Source of the DNA: a virus
Virus record (IMG/VR): IMGVR_UViG_3300009370_002433
Coordinates: 1-37,409 of that record
Length of the DNA stretch: 37,409 nt
Strand: one strand, 5' to 3'
The number at the start of each line of letters is the position of its first letter. Within the stretch, counting starts at the first letter, position 1. A model generated the notes under the pieces. That model did no database searches. It saw only the letters and a program-made list of their open reading frames with translations, and was not told the DNA's origin. Below, piece by piece: positions 13,000 to 33,556 of the stretch. Both the position numbers and the translations under genes were made by a program.

Positions 13000-13587
13000 A
13001 TGGAATTTAAAAACTGGTTTGGAAAACAAGATGCAGAAGTAGATGAATCTGAAATAGATCGTTTATATGATAAAGCACATATATCTGTAGAACTGGTGCG
13101 TGAATACAAACCAGAATTATTAAATAATATATCTACAATCGCAAATTTAGCCAGCGGAGCTTATGGGCTTTATAATTCAGGTGAAAATAAAAAAGTTCTA
13201 CCTACAAATGCTAAATTCATTTTTGATCAAAAACATATAGATCCAAATACCATCGACTTACTGCCTAAGTCTGTTATTAAACAACAGTTCCCTGAAATAG
13301 ATGAAAAACGAATTAAAGAAAGTGACACTATTCACGTCAACATAAATCGAATAGTTAAAGAATCAAAAACCGATTGGGATGCTGTTTTACAAATAGCAGC
13401 AACCATAATTCACGAATCCACACATGAAATGGAACGAGAAGAAACTGGCCAAACCAGCGAAGTAGGGCCACAAAGAGCCGAAAGAGAATTCATGAACTGG
13501 GCTAAACAAAATATGAAAAGAATTCAGGACAAATATCCTGAACTAAAAGGACAAGAAGATGGACTTCAAAAAATATCTGTTAATTAG
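13000..13587 (+). CDS. HExxH zincin-like protein with capsid-targeting-like N-terminus
   Basis: A 195-residue protein with the zinc-metalloprotease motif HESTH (residues 138-142) at the end of a helix (VLQIAATIIHESTHEME). Acidic residues near 160 could be the third ligand. Protease activity is therefore plausible, but the motif is short and the family is not recognised. The N-terminus MEFKNWFGKQ fits the F-x-x-[W/Y] motif shared by nearby proteins. It is first of four overlapping plus-strand genes. A possible late promoter lies 25 bp upstream, and the ribosome site AAGGA is good. Confidence 0.7.
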   Translation: MEFKNWFGKQDAEVDESEIDRLYDKAHISVELVREYKPELLNNISTIANLASGAYGLYNSGENKKVLPTNAKFIFDQKHIDPNTIDLLPKSVIKQQFPEIDEKRIKESDTIHVNINRIVKESKTDWDAVLQIAATIIHESTHEMEREETGQTSEVGPQRAEREFMNWAKQNMKRIQDKYPELKGQEDGLQKISVN

Positions 13588-14008
13588 CGAAAGCATAGAA
13601 ATTGGCAACCGAACTCTGCCTGAGAGCGAATTAAACTTTTCATTCGTGCGCAGCAGTGGCCCCGGTGGACAAAAAGTAAACAAGACGGCCTCAAAAGCTG
13701 TTCTATCTTGGCACGTCAAAAGTAGCGTTATATGGGGTAGCAACCAAGAAGCACTAAGCCGATTTTTATCAGCCAACAAAACAAGTAATAAAGGACACTT
13801 CCGTGCCGATTGCCAAGAACAAAGAAGCCAAGGGCAAAATAAAGAAGCATGCATCAATAAGCTAAAAAGAGCAATTGAAGAAGCATTAAAAGAACCAGTA
13901 GAAAGACAAACGACCGCCCCAACCACTAGCTCAGTTGAAAAAAGAATTGGAAAGAAAAAACAGCGGTCACAAAGAAAATCTGAACGAAGGCAAAAGTGGA
14001 ACTACTAA
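13559..14008 (+). CDS. ArfB/YaeJ-like ribosome-rescue peptidyl-tRNA hydrolase
   Basis: A 149-residue release-factor-domain protein. GPGGQKVNKTASKAVL (residues 34-49) holds the catalytic GGQ that hydrolyses peptidyl-tRNA. The basic C-terminus (SSVEKRIGKKKQRSQRKSER) matches the tail that ArfB inserts into the empty mRNA channel of stalled ribosomes. Aligned with E. coli ArfB from memory, the GGQ is ten residues further from the start. The extra N-terminal residues (MDFKKYLLISES) look like a capsid-targeting sequence, including I-S-E before Ser, a possible prohead-protease site. The start overlaps the upstream gene by 29 bp and has AAAGGA upstream. Confidence 0.88.
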   Translation: MDFKKYLLISESIEIGNRTLPESELNFSFVRSSGPGGQKVNKTASKAVLSWHVKSSVIWGSNQEALSRFLSANKTSNKGHFRADCQEQRSQGQNKEACINKLKRAIEEALKEPVERQTTAPTTSSVEKRIGKKKQRSQRKSERRQKWNY

Positions 14009-14283
14009 ACTTCAAGCAATACCTAGAAGCCGGATCAAACATAGGAGACACCGGAGGCGGTTCACACTATGACCAAGGACTGATATACACTGGCAGTGGA
14101 AGTTATATGCCGCCAGAAGAAGCCGCTCGAAGACAAGCACACAACGCAGGCATCCCTTTCCCAACACCTCTGACACCGGATGTTCAACAATTTTATCCTG
14201 AGCCAACTACAATAAATTTACAAAAAAAAAGAAAGCTCAAAGTCAAGAAAAGGAATAAAGAAAGAAAGTTGGGAAAATCATGA
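13996..14283 (+). CDS. Small protein with basic tail and capsid-targeting-like N-terminus
   Basis: A 95-residue protein beginning at a GTG with GAAGG upstream (MELLNFKQYLEAGSN). A Gly-rich middle is followed by a Pro-rich segment and a strongly basic tail rich in Lys and Arg, suited to binding nucleic acid. NFKQYLEAG resembles the motif of the neighbouring gene products. The start overlaps the ArfB-like gene by 13 bp and the end overlaps the next gene by ATGA, so the four genes are translationally coupled. A small DNA-associated head protein is a reasonable inference. Confidence 0.65.
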   Translation: MELLNFKQYLEAGSNIGDTGGGSHYDQGLIYTGSGSYMPPEEAARRQAHNAGIPFPTPLTPDVQQFYPEPTTINLQKKRKLKVKKRNKERKLGKS

Positions 14284-14834
14284 AAACATTTTTAGAATAT
14301 CATAAAGAACAAGAAATTAAAGAATTTTCCCAATGGTTAGAATTTCAAGGTTACGATCCGCAAACACTAGATCTAGAATCACTATTAGAAGCTGGTACGT
14401 GGGAAAAAGTTAAAAAGTGGGGCAAAGGAGCCGCTTTAGCTGGAGTTTTAGGAGCCGCTGCACTTGGAGGAATGACCCCAGGTGATTCAGATGCCCCATC
14501 AAAACAACCACAAACTCAATCTCAATCTCAAGAAGCTGAAGATGGGGTCACGGTTAAAGGGGACACTATCACAGTCCGCTTCTCCCATAAAAATATGAAC
14601 TACAGTCAAGCCAAAGCTCTTGACATGCTTGCTAAACATCTAAAAACAGATCAGATACCTGCTGGCCATACATCGGGCACAAAAAAAGGAGATGACGGAC
14701 TTTGGCATACTACAGTTGAATTATCAAAAAGCGGACAAGAAAATGCCGCAGCAGCACGTTCAGGAATGGGCGGTTCAAGTAACATCGTAAAACCATTACC
14801 CAGCGGACAAATTTCTCCTGACGCTGATCTATAA
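14280..14834 (+). CDS. Hypothetical protein with capsid-targeting-like N-terminus and hydrophobic segment
   Basis: A 184-residue protein. The N-terminus MKTFLEYHKEQEIKEFSQWL closely resembles the T4 internal-protein leader. A possible prohead-protease site L-L-E before Ala-Gly lies at residues 35-38. A Gly/Ala-rich hydrophobic stretch (GAALAGVLGAAALGG, about 48-62) follows, then a Gln/Ser linker and a compact C-terminal domain (about 85-150). Function unknown. It is last in the plus-strand cassette, and its stop overlaps the stop of the convergent beta-helix gene. Confidence 0.7.
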   Translation: MKTFLEYHKEQEIKEFSQWLEFQGYDPQTLDLESLLEAGTWEKVKKWGKGAALAGVLGAAALGGMTPGDSDAPSKQPQTQSQSQEAEDGVTVKGDTITVRFSHKNMNYSQAKALDMLAKHLKTDQIPAGHTSGTKKGDDGLWHTTVELSKSGQENAAAARSGMGGSSNIVKPLPSGQISPDADL

Positions 14835-17020: not shown

Positions 17021-17386
17021 TCACTCAACGTGAGTTACAACGCCCTTAAGGGTAATAGGAGAAATAGATTTCCAATGTGTTAATTTATTACTAAAAAATG
17101 GTTTCCCGCCTGCCTCTCGATTGACGGCAACCGTTATATGCTTAATTTCGTTACTACTAGGGATTGGCAACTCCACTCCAGCGGCCATCACCAACTCATC
17201 CTGTGCCTGCGTATTGACCGTTAGCGGAGCCTCTTGACCCACCAATTCTGCGGCGGGGCCTTTATCAGGAGAACCCATATTAATTGTCATATGATGAGCA
17301 ACAACTTCCCAATTCTCCGGTATGTCCAGAGAATCAACAAGCTTCTTATGGGAACCTTCATCTAAAACAAGTGCCGTATAACTCAC
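17021..17386 (-). CDS. 2H phosphoesterase-like protein
   Basis: A 121-residue protein with two H-x-T-x motifs, HMTI (in VVAHHMTINMG, about residue 32) and HITV (in IKHITVAVN, about residue 83), the signature of 2H phosphoesterases. These hydrolyse 2',3'-cyclic phosphates or cyclic oligonucleotides. The short spacing and the strand patterns around both motifs fit a minimal domain. Two phage uses are known for this fold: RNA end repair, and Acb1-type destruction of CBASS defence signals. The sequence alone does not decide between them. The start overlaps the preceding gene by ATGA, and a strong terminator follows. Confidence 0.65.
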   Translation of the reverse strand: MSYTALVLDEGSHKKLVDSLDIPENWEVVAHHMTINMGSPDKGPAAELVGQEAPLTVNTQAQDELVMAAGVELPIPSSNEIKHITVAVNREAGGKPFFSNKLTHWKSISPITLKGVVTHVE

Positions 17387-25012: not shown

Positions 25013-25786
25013 TCAATAATATTTCAAAATTGTTGCCATAGTTTCTATTATTTCGTCATTACTTTGAGTTGAAACAAATTTCATAATGCAATCTGCGGGC
25101 ATGATTTCCCACTTATTAGATGATCCCACTCCTGCTTCAACATTTGTATTAACAACTTTAAGTATTCCAGTGTCTTCTTCAAAAACTATATCAGTTTGAT
25201 TTTGTATCACTTTTTTGTGGTCTGGTGCTTCTACTCCATGGCCTCTAACCGAAAAATGAATTACATAATGGTTGTCTTTTAATTTGTGTATTCCTTCAAA
25301 GATAAATATTGGTCTTGCTGTTGACCTTAGTCGATTTGCCATATCGACAATAAGCTTTTCCATATTCTCCCATTTATCCTTAGGAGTATCTAATTTTTTT
25401 TCATTAATCTTTAATACTTCTGACATAAGTTCGTTGGCAACATAAACTTCAAATCCTCCATATCCTTCTCTGTTTATTTGATATACTTTCTTTGACAGCC
25501 ATTGTGGTGTACCTTGTAGATCATGAGTTAAACGTTCGATAAACACGTTGATTCCGGTGCCTAATCTTATTTTTATAGATCCTTCTCCTTCCCCCCATTG
25601 AACAACATCTACAAATTTCAAAGAAGGAACTTTTTCTCCCAATTTCTGCTCCGACAGAGATTTGCACATAGTTTCAACATTGAATTTATGTGTTGGCGTC
25701 TTTGCTTTAGGTTCTTTTCGTTGAACTTTTGGCTTAGAGTCAAACCCAAATATATCTTTCCATTCCATAAAGTCTTTATATCTCAT
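25013..25786 (-). CDS. Hypothetical protein with shared N-terminal motif, 257 aa
   Basis: Begins MRYKDFMEWKDIFGFD, with Phe/Trp spacing like the capsid-targeting-type N-termini nearby, followed by a basic Pro-rich linker (about residues 17-33). The body is an alpha/beta protein with alternating strands (GSIKIRLGTGINVFIERL, ARPIFIFEGIHKL, HYVIHFSVRGHGVE) and an acidic C-terminal part. No family recognised. No clear ribosome site; a GATAAATA lies only 6 bp before the ATG, too close for a normal leader. Confidence 0.7.
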   Translation of the reverse strand: MRYKDFMEWKDIFGFDSKPKVQRKEPKAKTPTHKFNVETMCKSLSEQKLGEKVPSLKFVDVVQWGEGEGSIKIRLGTGINVFIERLTHDLQGTPQWLSKKVYQINREGYGGFEVYVANELMSEVLKINEKKLDTPKDKWENMEKLIVDMANRLRSTARPIFIFEGIHKLKDNHYVIHFSVRGHGVEAPDHKKVIQNQTDIVFEEDTGILKVVNTNVEAGVGSSNKWEIMPADCIMKFVSTQSNDEIIETMATILKYY

Positions 25787-25820: not shown

Positions 25821-26102
25821 ATGAAATCATTTGAATCTTGGTTAGAAAACAAATTGTGGCTGGAAGATAAAAAGGTGGTAAAAGACACCATTCTTGGATT
25901 ATTGGACTTTTTAGGAGATTCAGAAAAAGACAGACTTAATTTTCATGTGAACAATATTGATACTGATACTAAAAGAAAAATTAAGAATTTAGGTATTTTA
26001 ACCAATATCAAGGATGATGACCCTGTTAAATATAAAGATATTATTGAAATACTTGACAAGGGGAGACAAACGGTATCTGAATTAATAGACAAAATATCAT
26101 GA
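25821..26102 (+). CDS. Small protein with capsid-targeting-like N-terminus, 93 aa
   Basis: Starts MKSFESWLENKLWLEDKK, a clear member of the shared N-terminal pattern. The rest is helical and charged with no motif. No Shine-Dalgarno site; the ATG follows TATATATTTTT directly. The stop overlaps the next ATG (ATGA), so the arginine-type hydrolase downstream is translated from the same message. It diverges from the 257-aa gene. Confidence 0.65.
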   Translation: MKSFESWLENKLWLEDKKVVKDTILGLLDFLGDSEKDRLNFHVNNIDTDTKRKIKNLGILTNIKDDDPVKYKDIIEILDKGRQTVSELIDKIS

Positions 26103-26887: not shown

Positions 26888-27698
26888 ATAAGTTTTTTAA
26901 AACTTTTATTGCCAATAATGGATTTTCTTTAAATCTCCTTAATGAATATTCATACCAACTATTGCCAAAAGGAACATAAACTGATGTTTTGTGCTTGTAT
27001 TTGACTTCGTCTATGAATGGGATCACATGTTTTACTCCAAATAAAAATTGATATTCTACATCATGACCAAACCACCTTTTGGCCAATCTTAGATCGTGTG
27101 TGGCCACCGCAACTTGGCAATTGTTTTTTATTAATTCTTTAACTATCCCTGTAAAATTTGTAAGTACATTTGTTCCGCTTAAAGAGAAGTTCCTATTTTC
27201 TTTATATGCTCCTTTGCAGACTCGCACATGTATGTTTTTAAGTCTGCCTGCGTCAGCCAAACTTCTTTTTAAATTGGCCTGTAAAACACAACCAACTGGG
27301 TATTTTTCATTTATTTCTTTAATTAAAACCAGTGTTCTTTCTGTGTATTTTGAATCTTCCATATCCACAGTGAGTTGCTTTTTTTCTTTATCGCACGCAG
27401 CCGCAATCTCAAGCAAGTTATCTCTACACTTCCAATACCCTTTAAGCATTCCAATGTTTGTTAGTTTGACGGATAGAGATGATTTTGTATTCTTTGATAA
27501 GTCTACAACTTCTAAATATTTTTCCAAATTGTCTCTTGCTTCTTTATCTGATTCCCCTAGTAGATCATACACTCCGTAGATGCTTCTCTCATTTAAATGT
27601 TTTACAACGTCCTCTGCATCTTTAAACGAATCTCCTGCGATGTATTGTTCCGCTATTTTTTTAACAAGTTTTTTAGGAACGAGTTTAAGTATGTTCAT
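26877..27698 (-). CDS. Proline dehydrogenase
   Basis: A 273-residue FAD-dependent enzyme that oxidises L-proline to pyrroline-5-carboxylate. The TIM-barrel signatures are in order: SVKLTNIG (about residues 75-82), LTVDMEDSKYTERTL (about 108-122), CVLQANLKRSLADA (about 137-150), VRVCKGAYKE (about 157-166), VAVATHDLRLAKR (about 194-206), EYQFLFGV (about 214) and YSLRRFKENP near the end, where paired Arg residues bind the carboxylate. Length is close to single-domain bacterial enzymes (about 300). The ATG overlaps the upstream stop (ATGA). No pyrroline-5-carboxylate dehydrogenase is seen in the window. Confidence 0.88.
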   Translation of the reverse strand: MNILKLVPKKLVKKIAEQYIAGDSFKDAEDVVKHLNERSIYGVYDLLGESDKEARDNLEKYLEVVDLSKNTKSSLSVKLTNIGMLKGYWKCRDNLLEIAAACDKEKKQLTVDMEDSKYTERTLVLIKEINEKYPVGCVLQANLKRSLADAGRLKNIHVRVCKGAYKENRNFSLSGTNVLTNFTGIVKELIKNNCQVAVATHDLRLAKRWFGHDVEYQFLFGVKHVIPFIDEVKYKHKTSVYVPFGNSWYEYSLRRFKENPLLAIKVLKNLFRF

Positions 27699-28138
27699 AG
27701 ATTTGCTGGGTCGAACGAATTGGGATTTGTTTCTGACCCTCCGAAATAGTGAATGCTTACGGCAATAGTTTCGATGCCGAGATCTTTTGCTGCTCGCATT
27801 CGATGATTTCCTTCATTGATTTTAGTTTCTCCATTATGAAAAACATTCACCTGAATGGGGTTTTTGTAGAGAACTTTAGGATCGTTTTTCAAGACTTCTC
27901 TCCAGTGTTTATATTTTTCTGGTATTACATTTTTATGTTCATCATTTTGACCGGGTAGTCTTTCAACATGTTTGATTGGTATAATGACAGTGTTGTATTT
28001 GGCTGTGATACTTGTTTTGTTATGCTTAAGCCATTGTGGGTCATTTGGGTTATCGGACCAGAATCCTAGTTCATCACGCTTCGCTGCTCTTTCAGGCGTT
28101 ATTTCTTTTTTTCCAAACCATTGTGAAAACGTTTTCAT
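27695..28138 (-). CDS. ParB/Srx-domain protein with capsid-targeting-like N-terminus
   Basis: A 147-residue protein. KINEGNHRMRAAKDLGIETI (about residues 104-123) is the conserved box of the ParB/sulfiredoxin fold (usually D-G-x-H-R), and VIIPIKHVERLPG opens the domain. ParB-like domains can bind or hydrolyse CTP or act as nucleases; which applies here is unknown. The N-terminus MKTFSQWFGKKE matches the shared motif. AGGAAA lies before the ATG. The stop overlaps the proline dehydrogenase start by ATGA. Confidence 0.75.
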   Translation of the reverse strand: MKTFSQWFGKKEITPERAAKRDELGFWSDNPNDPQWLKHNKTSITAKYNTVIIPIKHVERLPGQNDEHKNVIPEKYKHWREVLKNDPKVLYKNPIQVNVFHNGETKINEGNHRMRAAKDLGIETIAVSIHYFGGSETNPNSFDPANL

Positions 28139-28180: not shown

Positions 28181-28747
28181 ATGGAATTAATAATCGTTAG
28201 ACACGGAGAAAGTGAGTATAACACTGACATTTCCGAGAGTTTAGATAGCAGTCTGACTACTGAAGGTATTTTACAAGTAAAAAAGACAGCCGAGTACTTA
28301 AAAAAAATTGATTTAAGTGAGTTTGAAGGAATAACGTCGCCTTATTTAAGAACTCTTCAGACTGCTAAAATTATTCAGGGGGAAACGGACATTCCGTTTC
28401 GAGTAGACAATGGCCCTGCTGAATTGACAATTTACTATTATGACATTGATTTTTTAGATGTTCCTAAGCGGGACTTTGAGTTTGATTGGCCGTCTGATTG
28501 GGATGGAAGATTTGCTGCCAAAGAAAATTTAGACGACTTTCTTTGTAGAATAGAATCGTTTTTATCTGGCTTAGACAAGAATAAAAAATATTTGATTGTT
28601 TCACACGGATCTCCAGTACATACTATGTCTAATTTAATGCAAGGCATTAAAGAAGTCCCAGAGTGGACAGATTCGATAGCTAATTCTAGTATAACTTGGT
28701 TAGAAAATGATAATTTGAAATGTCTTTCTAAGGTGGTTTATGATTAA
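28181..28747 (+). CDS. Histidine phosphatase (phosphoglycerate-mutase-like)
   Basis: A 188-residue phosphatase of the histidine-phosphatase superfamily. IIVRHGESEYN (about residues 4-14) carries the catalytic His and Arg, SPYLRTLQTAKII (about 58-70) a second Arg, and LIVSHGSPVHTM (about 146-157) the second His. Substrates range from sugar phosphates to phosphoproteins and cannot be told here. Its N-terminus starts directly at the first strand, with no targeting motif. No Shine-Dalgarno site before the ATG. The end overlaps the kinase gene by 8 bp. Confidence 0.88.
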   Translation: MELIIVRHGESEYNTDISESLDSSLTTEGILQVKKTAEYLKKIDLSEFEGITSPYLRTLQTAKIIQGETDIPFRVDNGPAELTIYYYDIDFLDVPKRDFEFDWPSDWDGRFAAKENLDDFLCRIESFLSGLDKNKKYLIVSHGSPVHTMSNLMQGIKEVPEWTDSIANSSITWLENDNLKCLSKVVYD

Positions 28748-29276
28748 TTTTTCAAAATGGATAGAATCTAAAGAATCTAAGATTCTTTACATAATGCGTG
28801 GGGTTTCTGGATCTGGCAAGAGCACGTTGGCCAATAGCCTTGCTGACCCTTCTGGCATTTTCTCTACGGATGATTTTTTTGGGCATGGAGATGAATATAT
28901 TAAGAATTTTAATCCATCTAAACTGGGAAAAGCTCATCAATGGAACCAAGATAGAGTTATTGAAGCCATGTCAAAAGGAATCAATCCTATAGTAGTTGAC
29001 AATACTCACACTCAAGCTTGGGAAGCAAAACCATATGTAAAAGCCGCTCTTAAAAACGGTTATGAAGTCATTATAAAAGAGCCAAATTCTCCTATGTGGA
29101 AAGTGGTTCTAGATACTATAGAAAAGGATGGAGATCTTGATTCGGTGGCTGCGAAACTTTCTAGTTTGAATAAGCATGGTGTTCCAAAAGAGGCAATTGA
29201 AAGAATGCTTCGAAGATATGAGCCGAATATTACTGTGGACAAGATATTAGATTCTAAGTCTCCTTTTGATAAATAA
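28740..29276 (+). CDS. P-loop polynucleotide-kinase-like protein (AAA_33/N4BP2 type)
   Basis: A 178-residue kinase. Walker A is GVSGSGKST (about residues 21-29), followed by a IFSTDDFF segment with acidic residues (about 39-46) and INPIVVDNTHTQAWEAKPY (about 81-99), the pattern of 5'-polynucleotide-kinase-like N4BP2 and T4 Pnk kinase domains. The first 14 residues (MINFSKWIESKESK) precede the first strand and match the shared N-terminal motif. AAGGTGG lies upstream. No phosphatase domain is fused, but a separate histidine phosphatase gene overlaps it. Repair of broken RNA ends is a possible role. Confidence 0.82.
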   Translation: MINFSKWIESKESKILYIMRGVSGSGKSTLANSLADPSGIFSTDDFFGHGDEYIKNFNPSKLGKAHQWNQDRVIEAMSKGINPIVVDNTHTQAWEAKPYVKAALKNGYEVIIKEPNSPMWKVVLDTIEKDGDLDSVAAKLSSLNKHGVPKEAIERMLRRYEPNITVDKILDSKSPFDK

Positions 29277-32983: not shown

Positions 32984-33556
32984 CTATATTCGTTGACCTG
33001 ACTCCGCTGCCTTGGCATCTAACTTTGCCGACCCTGCTCTGGCTCTGGCAGCGGCGGCTGGATCTGGCTTTCCACGCATGGCTGTACTGGTGGTTTTAGG
33101 TGCTCTGGGTTGCGTTTTCTCCCAATCCCCAACACCCTTGTCACTCAGCGGGAATCCTCCTGGAACGGTTTTCGCAGCGTGAAGTCTGGCACGGTATGCA
33201 TTGAGTTTTTTTATAATAGGAATGAATTCTCTCGATAGTTCATCACCACCTAATTTTCCAGCGTCGGTTAAATTGGAAATTGCATTCTTAATCATTGGGC
33301 CAGGATCTTTTCCTTTTCCCATCGCTACACTTAAGGCTCTTTTCCCACCTTCTATAGCTCCTCGTCCAACACCACTGACGGCGGTATCTAAAGCACGTTT
33401 TCCAACGGCAACGCCAGCGTCTACAACGCCTTTAGCGGCTCTTCCAGCCAAGTTTCCTAAAACCCCTTCTTCCATAACACCTTGAGATTCTAGGTATTCT
33501 AATATTTGTACGGCTTCTTCAATGTTTCTATTAATGCAATATTTTTTAAAGGTCAT
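32984..33556 (-). CDS. Ala/Gly-rich probable internal head protein with targeting-like N-terminus
   Basis: A 190-residue basic protein starting MTFKKYCINRNIEEAVQILE. I-E-E before Ala at residues 12-15 is a possible prohead-protease cut. The body is rich in Ala, Gly and Lys (VVDAGVAVGKRALDTAVSG) with amphipathic helix, and has a disordered Pro/Ala C-terminus. AGGAG lies before the ATG. A perfect late-promoter-like TATAAATA lies 26 bp upstream. All this fits a small DNA-associated head protein, though no homologue is recognised. Confidence 0.65.
   Translation of the reverse strand: MTFKKYCINRNIEEAVQILEYLESQGVMEEGVLGNLAGRAAKGVVDAGVAVGKRALDTAVSGVGRGAIEGGKRALSVAMGKGKDPGPMIKNAISNLTDAGKLGGDELSREFIPIIKKLNAYRARLHAAKTVPGGFPLSDKGVGDWEKTQPRAPKTTSTAMRGKPDPAAAARARAGSAKLDAKAAESGQRI

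Follow-up and report, generated by a model that had tools for sequence, protein, structure and literature searches.

The window, a stretch of viral DNA of 37,409 nucleotides, raises the question of why a phage gene for what looks like the ribosome-rescue factor ArfB should begin with a short N-terminal extension, and what this extension might do for the phage. The gene and its parts are located as follows, all on the plus strand.

13559 to 14008, plus strand: ArfB-type codon-independent release factor with an N-terminal leader, 149 amino acids, ATG start
13559 to 13591, plus strand: leader MDFKKYLLISE, resembling a T4 capsid-targeting sequence (CTS); F3/Y6 match targeting residues 4/7, and I9/E11 match processing residues 8/10, of T4 IPIII (PMC9026906)
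13592 to 13618, plus strand: variable junction past the predicted cleavage site, where relatives show a codon indel and the majority of their amino acid differences
13664 to 13672, plus strand: GGQ catalytic motif, residues 36-38
13904 to 13987, plus strand: linker residues R116 and T119 and basic C-terminal tail (R129, I130, K133, K140, R143) (PMC3950681)

The product of this ORF matched the RF-1 family of Pfam (7e-20) and scored 111.7 bits with the NCBIfam ArfB equivalog model NF006718, whose cut-off is 100 bits; the leader-ArfBs of its relatives also exceeded this cut-off (110.9-115.9 bits), and ArfB/YaeJ structures were the top PDB sequence matches of the window protein (1e-14). The GGQ lies in a GxGGQxVNK context within the RF-1 domain, and an alignment with 45 bacterial proteins revealed that the invariant positions G34, G36, G37, Q38, V40, N41, K42, N94, R116, K133 and R143 are all present. 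According to mutagenesis of the E. coli protein, activity requires, outside the GGQ motif, residues R105, T108, R118, L119, K122, K129 and R132 (PMC3950681); these correspond to R116, T119, R129, I130, K133, K140 and R143 in the window ArfB, which retains all seven of them, one as a conservative L-to-I change. Unlike RF1/2 and PrfH, the protein lacks a codon-recognition domain and consists only of the RF-1 domain and the tail. When its AlphaFold2 model (mean pLDDT 86) was compared with known structures, ribosome-bound ArfB (6yss) ranked first (7.6e-9), and a core dN/dS of about 0.1 between the window ArfB and its relatives indicated that the gene is under purifying selection. Taken together, these results indicated that ORF 13559-14008 encodes, as judged by its sequence, a complete ArfB whose hydrolase activity is predicted. 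The original prediction of an ArfB-type protein that keeps the GGQ and the basic C-terminal tail was thus borne out by the equivalog score, the best PDB match and a full complement of tail residues.

PHROGs contained no ArfB family for the window protein, and a tblastn search of INPHARED with it returned two weak matches only, both leaderless. Small stand-alone RF-1-domain proteins, most of them without the ArfB tail, were observed in many viral contigs, at L027-L031, L134, L138, L161, L164, L175 and other loci, and two viral contigs, 236 and 395 kb long, encode a leaderless, somewhat C12orf65-like protein of 113 residues that has a GGQ and a basic tail (L172, 5123-5461, minus strand; L202, 1718-2056, plus strand).

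The window ArfB starts 33 residues before GxGGQ and bacterial ArfBs 18-28 residues before it, and the extension therefore amounts to 10 residues relative to E. coli, and up to 15 relative to flavobacteria, in agreement with the earlier estimate of about ten extra residues. Because residues 2-25 contain no ATG, GTG or TTG, a mis-called start was ruled out. In the AlphaFold2 model the leader has a pLDDT below 50, with residues 1-9 disordered and the fold beginning at residue 12. The close relatives, which contribute two distinct sequences besides that of the window, retain MDFK[KE]YLLISE and share the same layout, i.e. the leader, then a variable junction that holds a codon indel and the majority of the local changes, and then the conserved domain; the processing site reads I-S-E followed by S or N in all of them. 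A 29-nt overlap between ArfB codons 1-10 and the end of the upstream ORF partly confounds this conservation among the close relatives. In LR756511, a 595-kb uncultured phage that is the closest relative found outside IMG/VR, the homolog of the upstream ORF does not align with the final residues of the window ORF, so that a constraint on the leader from the upstream frame is possible but not evident.

The extension resembles the leaders of the T4 internal proteins, which read MKTFKEF in IPI and MKTYQEFIAE/A (the slash marks the cut) in IPII and IPIII. Mutagenesis of IPIII assigned targeting to residues 4 and 7 and processing to residues 8 and 10, and the T4 gp21 protease cleaves after [LI]xE (PMC9026906). 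The window leader likewise is an N terminus of about 10 residues whose aromatics, F3 and Y6, are three positions apart as in the T4 CTS, and it ends in an [LI]xE-type site, I9-S-E11. Moreover, the ArfB gene is the second of four overlapping plus-strand genes, all leader-tagged and flanked by minus-strand genes, and additional leader-bearing ORFs are present elsewhere in the window.

13000 to 13587, plus strand: leader-bearing ORF (MEFKNWFGK...) whose product contains HESTHE, an HExxH motif; it opens the four-gene cluster and overlaps the ArfB start by 29 nt
13996 to 14283, plus strand: leader-bearing ORF (MELLNFKQYLEAG...), overlapping the ArfB stop by 13 nt
14280 to 14834, plus strand: leader-bearing ORF (MKTFLEYHKEQ...), which ends the cluster
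25013 to 25786, minus strand: leader-bearing ORF (MRYKDFMEWKD...), whose LR756511 homolog is also leader-bearing
25821 to 26102, plus strand: leader-bearing ORF (MKSFESWLENK...)
27695 to 28138, minus strand: leader-bearing ORF (MKTFSQWFGKK...)
28740 to 29276, plus strand: leader (MINFSKWIESKES) followed by an AAA_33 kinase, with a homolog in the record G002
32984 to 33556, minus strand: leader-bearing ORF (MTFKKYCINRN...)

The HESTHE protein is conserved and belongs to no Pfam family; its LR756511 homolog, 52% identical, may also carry a leader (MRTWHEF).

Two leader motifs, a loose and a strict one, were both defined after the leaders had been seen, and the resulting P values are therefore indicative: the loose motif was found in 9 of the 53 window ORFs (1.1 expected, P 1e-6) and the strict motif in 6 of the 53 (0.10 expected, P 1e-9), and the strict motif compared with internal positions gave P values from 1e-9 to 1e-23 across the window, its 95-kb relative (9/116 ORFs), LR756511 (36/1051 ORFs) and G004 (10/206 ORFs). 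More weight can be placed on the comparison between collections. In the phage group the strict motif is carried by 3-11% of the ORFs, on dozens of unrelated proteins, versus 0.5% (6/1181) of the ORFs in other viral contigs and none of the 372 ORFs surrounding bacterial genes for ArfB or release factors. The leaders are T4-CTS-like also outside the positions of the loose motif, with E at +2 in 31% of them (7% background) and L or F at +4; their enrichment in [LI]xE sites is only about twofold. In bacterial loci the leader motif was found upstream in none of 78 ArfB-like ORFs, which rules out a host-derived extension; bacterial ArfBs with the same extension were what the original prediction had named as evidence against itself.

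When IMG/VR was scanned for GGQNVNK, a second lineage of leader-ArfBs was detected, starting with MRSFQEYVVLREAM... in two contigs and with MKFHEYCLMREAM... in a third. These proteins are about 42% identical to the window ArfB and above the ArfB equivalog cut-off, they have the leader residues M, F, Y and E in common with it, and their predicted cut sites fall in the same place (L-R-E/A in L158 and, with M at the first position, M-R-E/A in L186). An internal Met follows the leader, so that a shorter start is possible in this lineage; its leader changes are at third codon positions in 7 of 13 cases, consistent with coding. Two of the contigs also carry gp23 and gp21 (in one of them, gp23 at 1.6e-85 and gp21/S77 at 1.7e-28). 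The tree contained two supported phage ArfB lineages, with a single origin in 44% of the bootstraps, and one common origin of the leader-ArfBs is possible on this basis. The second lineage does not share the upstream-gene overlap context of the window ArfB. The recurrence there of the same leader pattern, its enrichment in several phage contigs or genomes and its absence from the 78 bacterial ArfB-like ORFs all argue against the reading that the N terminus of a phage ArfB simply drifted, under the influence of the upstream overlap, and came to match the CTS by chance; this explanation, which could appeal to the 29-nt overlap and to a short motif defined after inspection, is disfavored and seems very improbable. 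The match to the T4 CTS, the second lineage with gp21 and gp23 and the absence of the leader from bacterial ArfBs thus support the assignment of the leader to the T4 capsid-targeting type, and with it the earlier suggestion of a packaging leader.

The head genes of the phage group point in the same direction. LR756511 encodes T4-type gp23 (5e-87), gp20 (1e-74) and gp21/S77 (7e-28), and an ORF of the size of gp22 lies between gp21 and gp23, so that the machinery by which T4 reads such leaders is available in the group. The records G004 and G005 also contain gp23 and the gp21/S77 prohead protease; neither was seen in the fragmentary clade of the window, where the S77 protease was not found in the window or in the three relatives closest to it (all fragments, unlike the complete LR756511), nor gp23, gp20 and gp21 in the window or its 95-kb relative. 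The protease of this clade was not seen because the window and the 95-kb relative are fragments without head genes. A second, diverged S77 copy is located at 242621-242989 of LR756511.1 (L125). A ClpP-like head-protease match in G002 was not accepted as the prohead protease; at 61086-66838 (L008) it follows a PrkA-type serine kinase and sporulation-protein-like ORFs, a PrkA/YhbH/SpoVR-like trio. LR756511 contains no ArfB, and its one RF-1 domain protein has no leader; this 192-residue protein (413855-414433 of LR756511.1, L120) is like RF1/RF2 in its C-terminal part and is encoded near a leader-tagged CPD gene.

A leader need not imply delivery to the host. It could be a localization peptide that is not meant for the virion, tethering the protein to the prohead core during assembly only or directing it to another compartment, with ArfB acting late in the infected cell. 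In favor of this explanation, leader-bearing proteins are so numerous (LR756511 has 36 strict matches) that perhaps not all of them are ejected. However, foreign proteins are packaged into heads and delivered to the host by the T4 leader, which has the same targeting residues (PMC9026906; PMC3012670), and gp21 and gp23 occur on the same contig as a leader-ArfB, which makes a role confined to localization improbable. We infer from the T4 system that the leader-ArfB would be packaged and injected, and we regard this part of the proposal as well supported.

The other leader-tagged proteins of the group bear on what an injected ArfB might be for. A CCA/poly(A) polymerase and a SAK-type HAD RNA-repair phosphatase are leader-tagged in LR756511 and G004, a CPD-type phosphodiesterase and a C39 peptidase in LR756511, and a Pnk-like AAA_33 kinase in G002, as is its window homolog at 28740. 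The LR756511 homolog of this AAA_33-type kinase (L014, 8090-9962) has no leader and adjoins a T4 Rnl1-type RNA ligase, and the CPD-type 2H phosphodiesterase has a leader in LR756511.1 (411779-412324, L120) and none in the window (17021-17386, minus strand). Because the leader is present or absent on orthologs, it behaves as a detachable module that is gained or lost on the same domain. The leader-tagged polymerase and phosphatase genes are close together both in G004 (64634-68553, L231) and in LR756511.1 (580680-583582, L123), and the pair is possibly a packaged RNA-repair cassette. That leaders fall preferentially on RNA-repair genes is an impression gained from the annotated subset. A specific link to RtcB/PrfH repair is unsupported, since these records contain no RtcB.

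Because ArfB acts on truncated mRNA regardless of what cut it (PMC7427801), the leader could also package it for a housekeeping use, clearing host ribosomes stalled on phage-degraded mRNAs and recycling them for phage translation with no specific defense involved. In agreement with this, the neighborhood names no defense system, the four cluster genes having no match in PADLOC. Nevertheless, the leader-tagged tRNA end-repair and RNA-repair enzymes of the relatives fit RNA damage better than simple recycling, and we consider housekeeping alone rather unlikely. The same enzymes make a counter-defense role of the leader-ArfB, put forward here as a hypothesis, plausible without demonstrating it.

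We propose that the ArfB ribosome-rescue factor encoded in the window is probably cargo of the phage head and injected, most likely for undoing jamming caused by RNases. By analogy with T4, the two aromatics of the leader would dock ArfB onto the prohead core, a gp21-like (S77) protease would cut after ISE11 to leave an ordinary ArfB N terminus (SIEIGNRTLPE...), and the cleaved protein would be retained in the mature head and enter the host with the DNA. In T4, injected IPI and IPIII allow growth on particular hosts (PMC9391042; PMC3012670). From what is known of ArfB biochemistry (PMC7427801), the basic tail would then insert into the mRNA channel, which is empty in non-stop ribosomes, and the GGQ loop would hydrolyze the peptidyl-tRNA on truncated mRNA, freeing ribosomes ahead of any phage gene expression. 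The purpose may be to undo jamming by host RNases, whether these act as defense toxins or in mRNA decay at takeover, with the injected ArfB working alongside the leader-tagged RNA-repair enzymes of the same phage group. More tentatively, and with chances just short of even, T4-headed large phages may inject a pre-made ribosome-rescue and RNA-repair kit, ArfB included, that would restore translation blocked by RNA-cleaving host defenses before the first phage gene is translated.

No report of a phage ArfB or of an injected rescue factor was found among the open-access texts searched; ArfB and T4 targeting are each known, and their combination is unreported in the literature searched. If packaged, the protein would be the first ribosome-rescue factor known to be delivered by a virion, to the extent that this search can tell. 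It would provide phage translation with support at DNA entry and not only after phage gene expression, and would broaden the internal-protein strategy of T4, which blocks restriction enzymes, to include repair of the translation machinery. With the leader as a search pattern, candidate injected proteins can also be catalogued in uncultured giant phages.

Among known systems, E. coli ArfB/YaeJ and mitochondrial ICT1/mL62 share with the window protein the GGQ domain, the linker, the basic tail, the activity residues and the predicted fold (6yss); the window protein differs from them in being encoded by a phage, in an N terminus that is 10 residues longer and carries a CTS-type leader, and in its clustering with other leader-tagged genes. 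PrfH, which has been linked to RNA repair after RNase attack (PMC6514570), occurs with RtcB, and both it and the stand-alone phage RF-1 proteins have the RF-1/GGQ peptidyl-tRNA hydrolase fold. However, PrfH retains the codon-recognition domain that the window ArfB lacks, and the small phage RF-1 proteins found here are mostly without the ArfB tail and the leader. The Pth1/PTH2 fold differs from that of ArfB. PTH2, Pth1, RF1/2, tmRNA and SmpB have been reported in jumbo and huge phages (PMC7824862; PMC7162821), and peptidyl-tRNA hydrolysis during ribosome rescue was proposed for the Pth1/PTH2 of jumbo phages, with no leader reported and ArfB unmentioned there (PMC7824862). The T4 proteins IPI, IPII, IPIII and Alt resemble the window protein in their leader of about 10 residues, in which the aromatics are separated by three positions and an [IL]xE cut site is followed by A or S, and in the gp21/gp23-type head found in the phage group of the window. 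In contrast, the T4 internal proteins are small anti-restriction or unknown proteins and the window cargo is a predicted ribosome-rescue enzyme, and the phage group of the window has many more leader-tagged genes per genome than T4.
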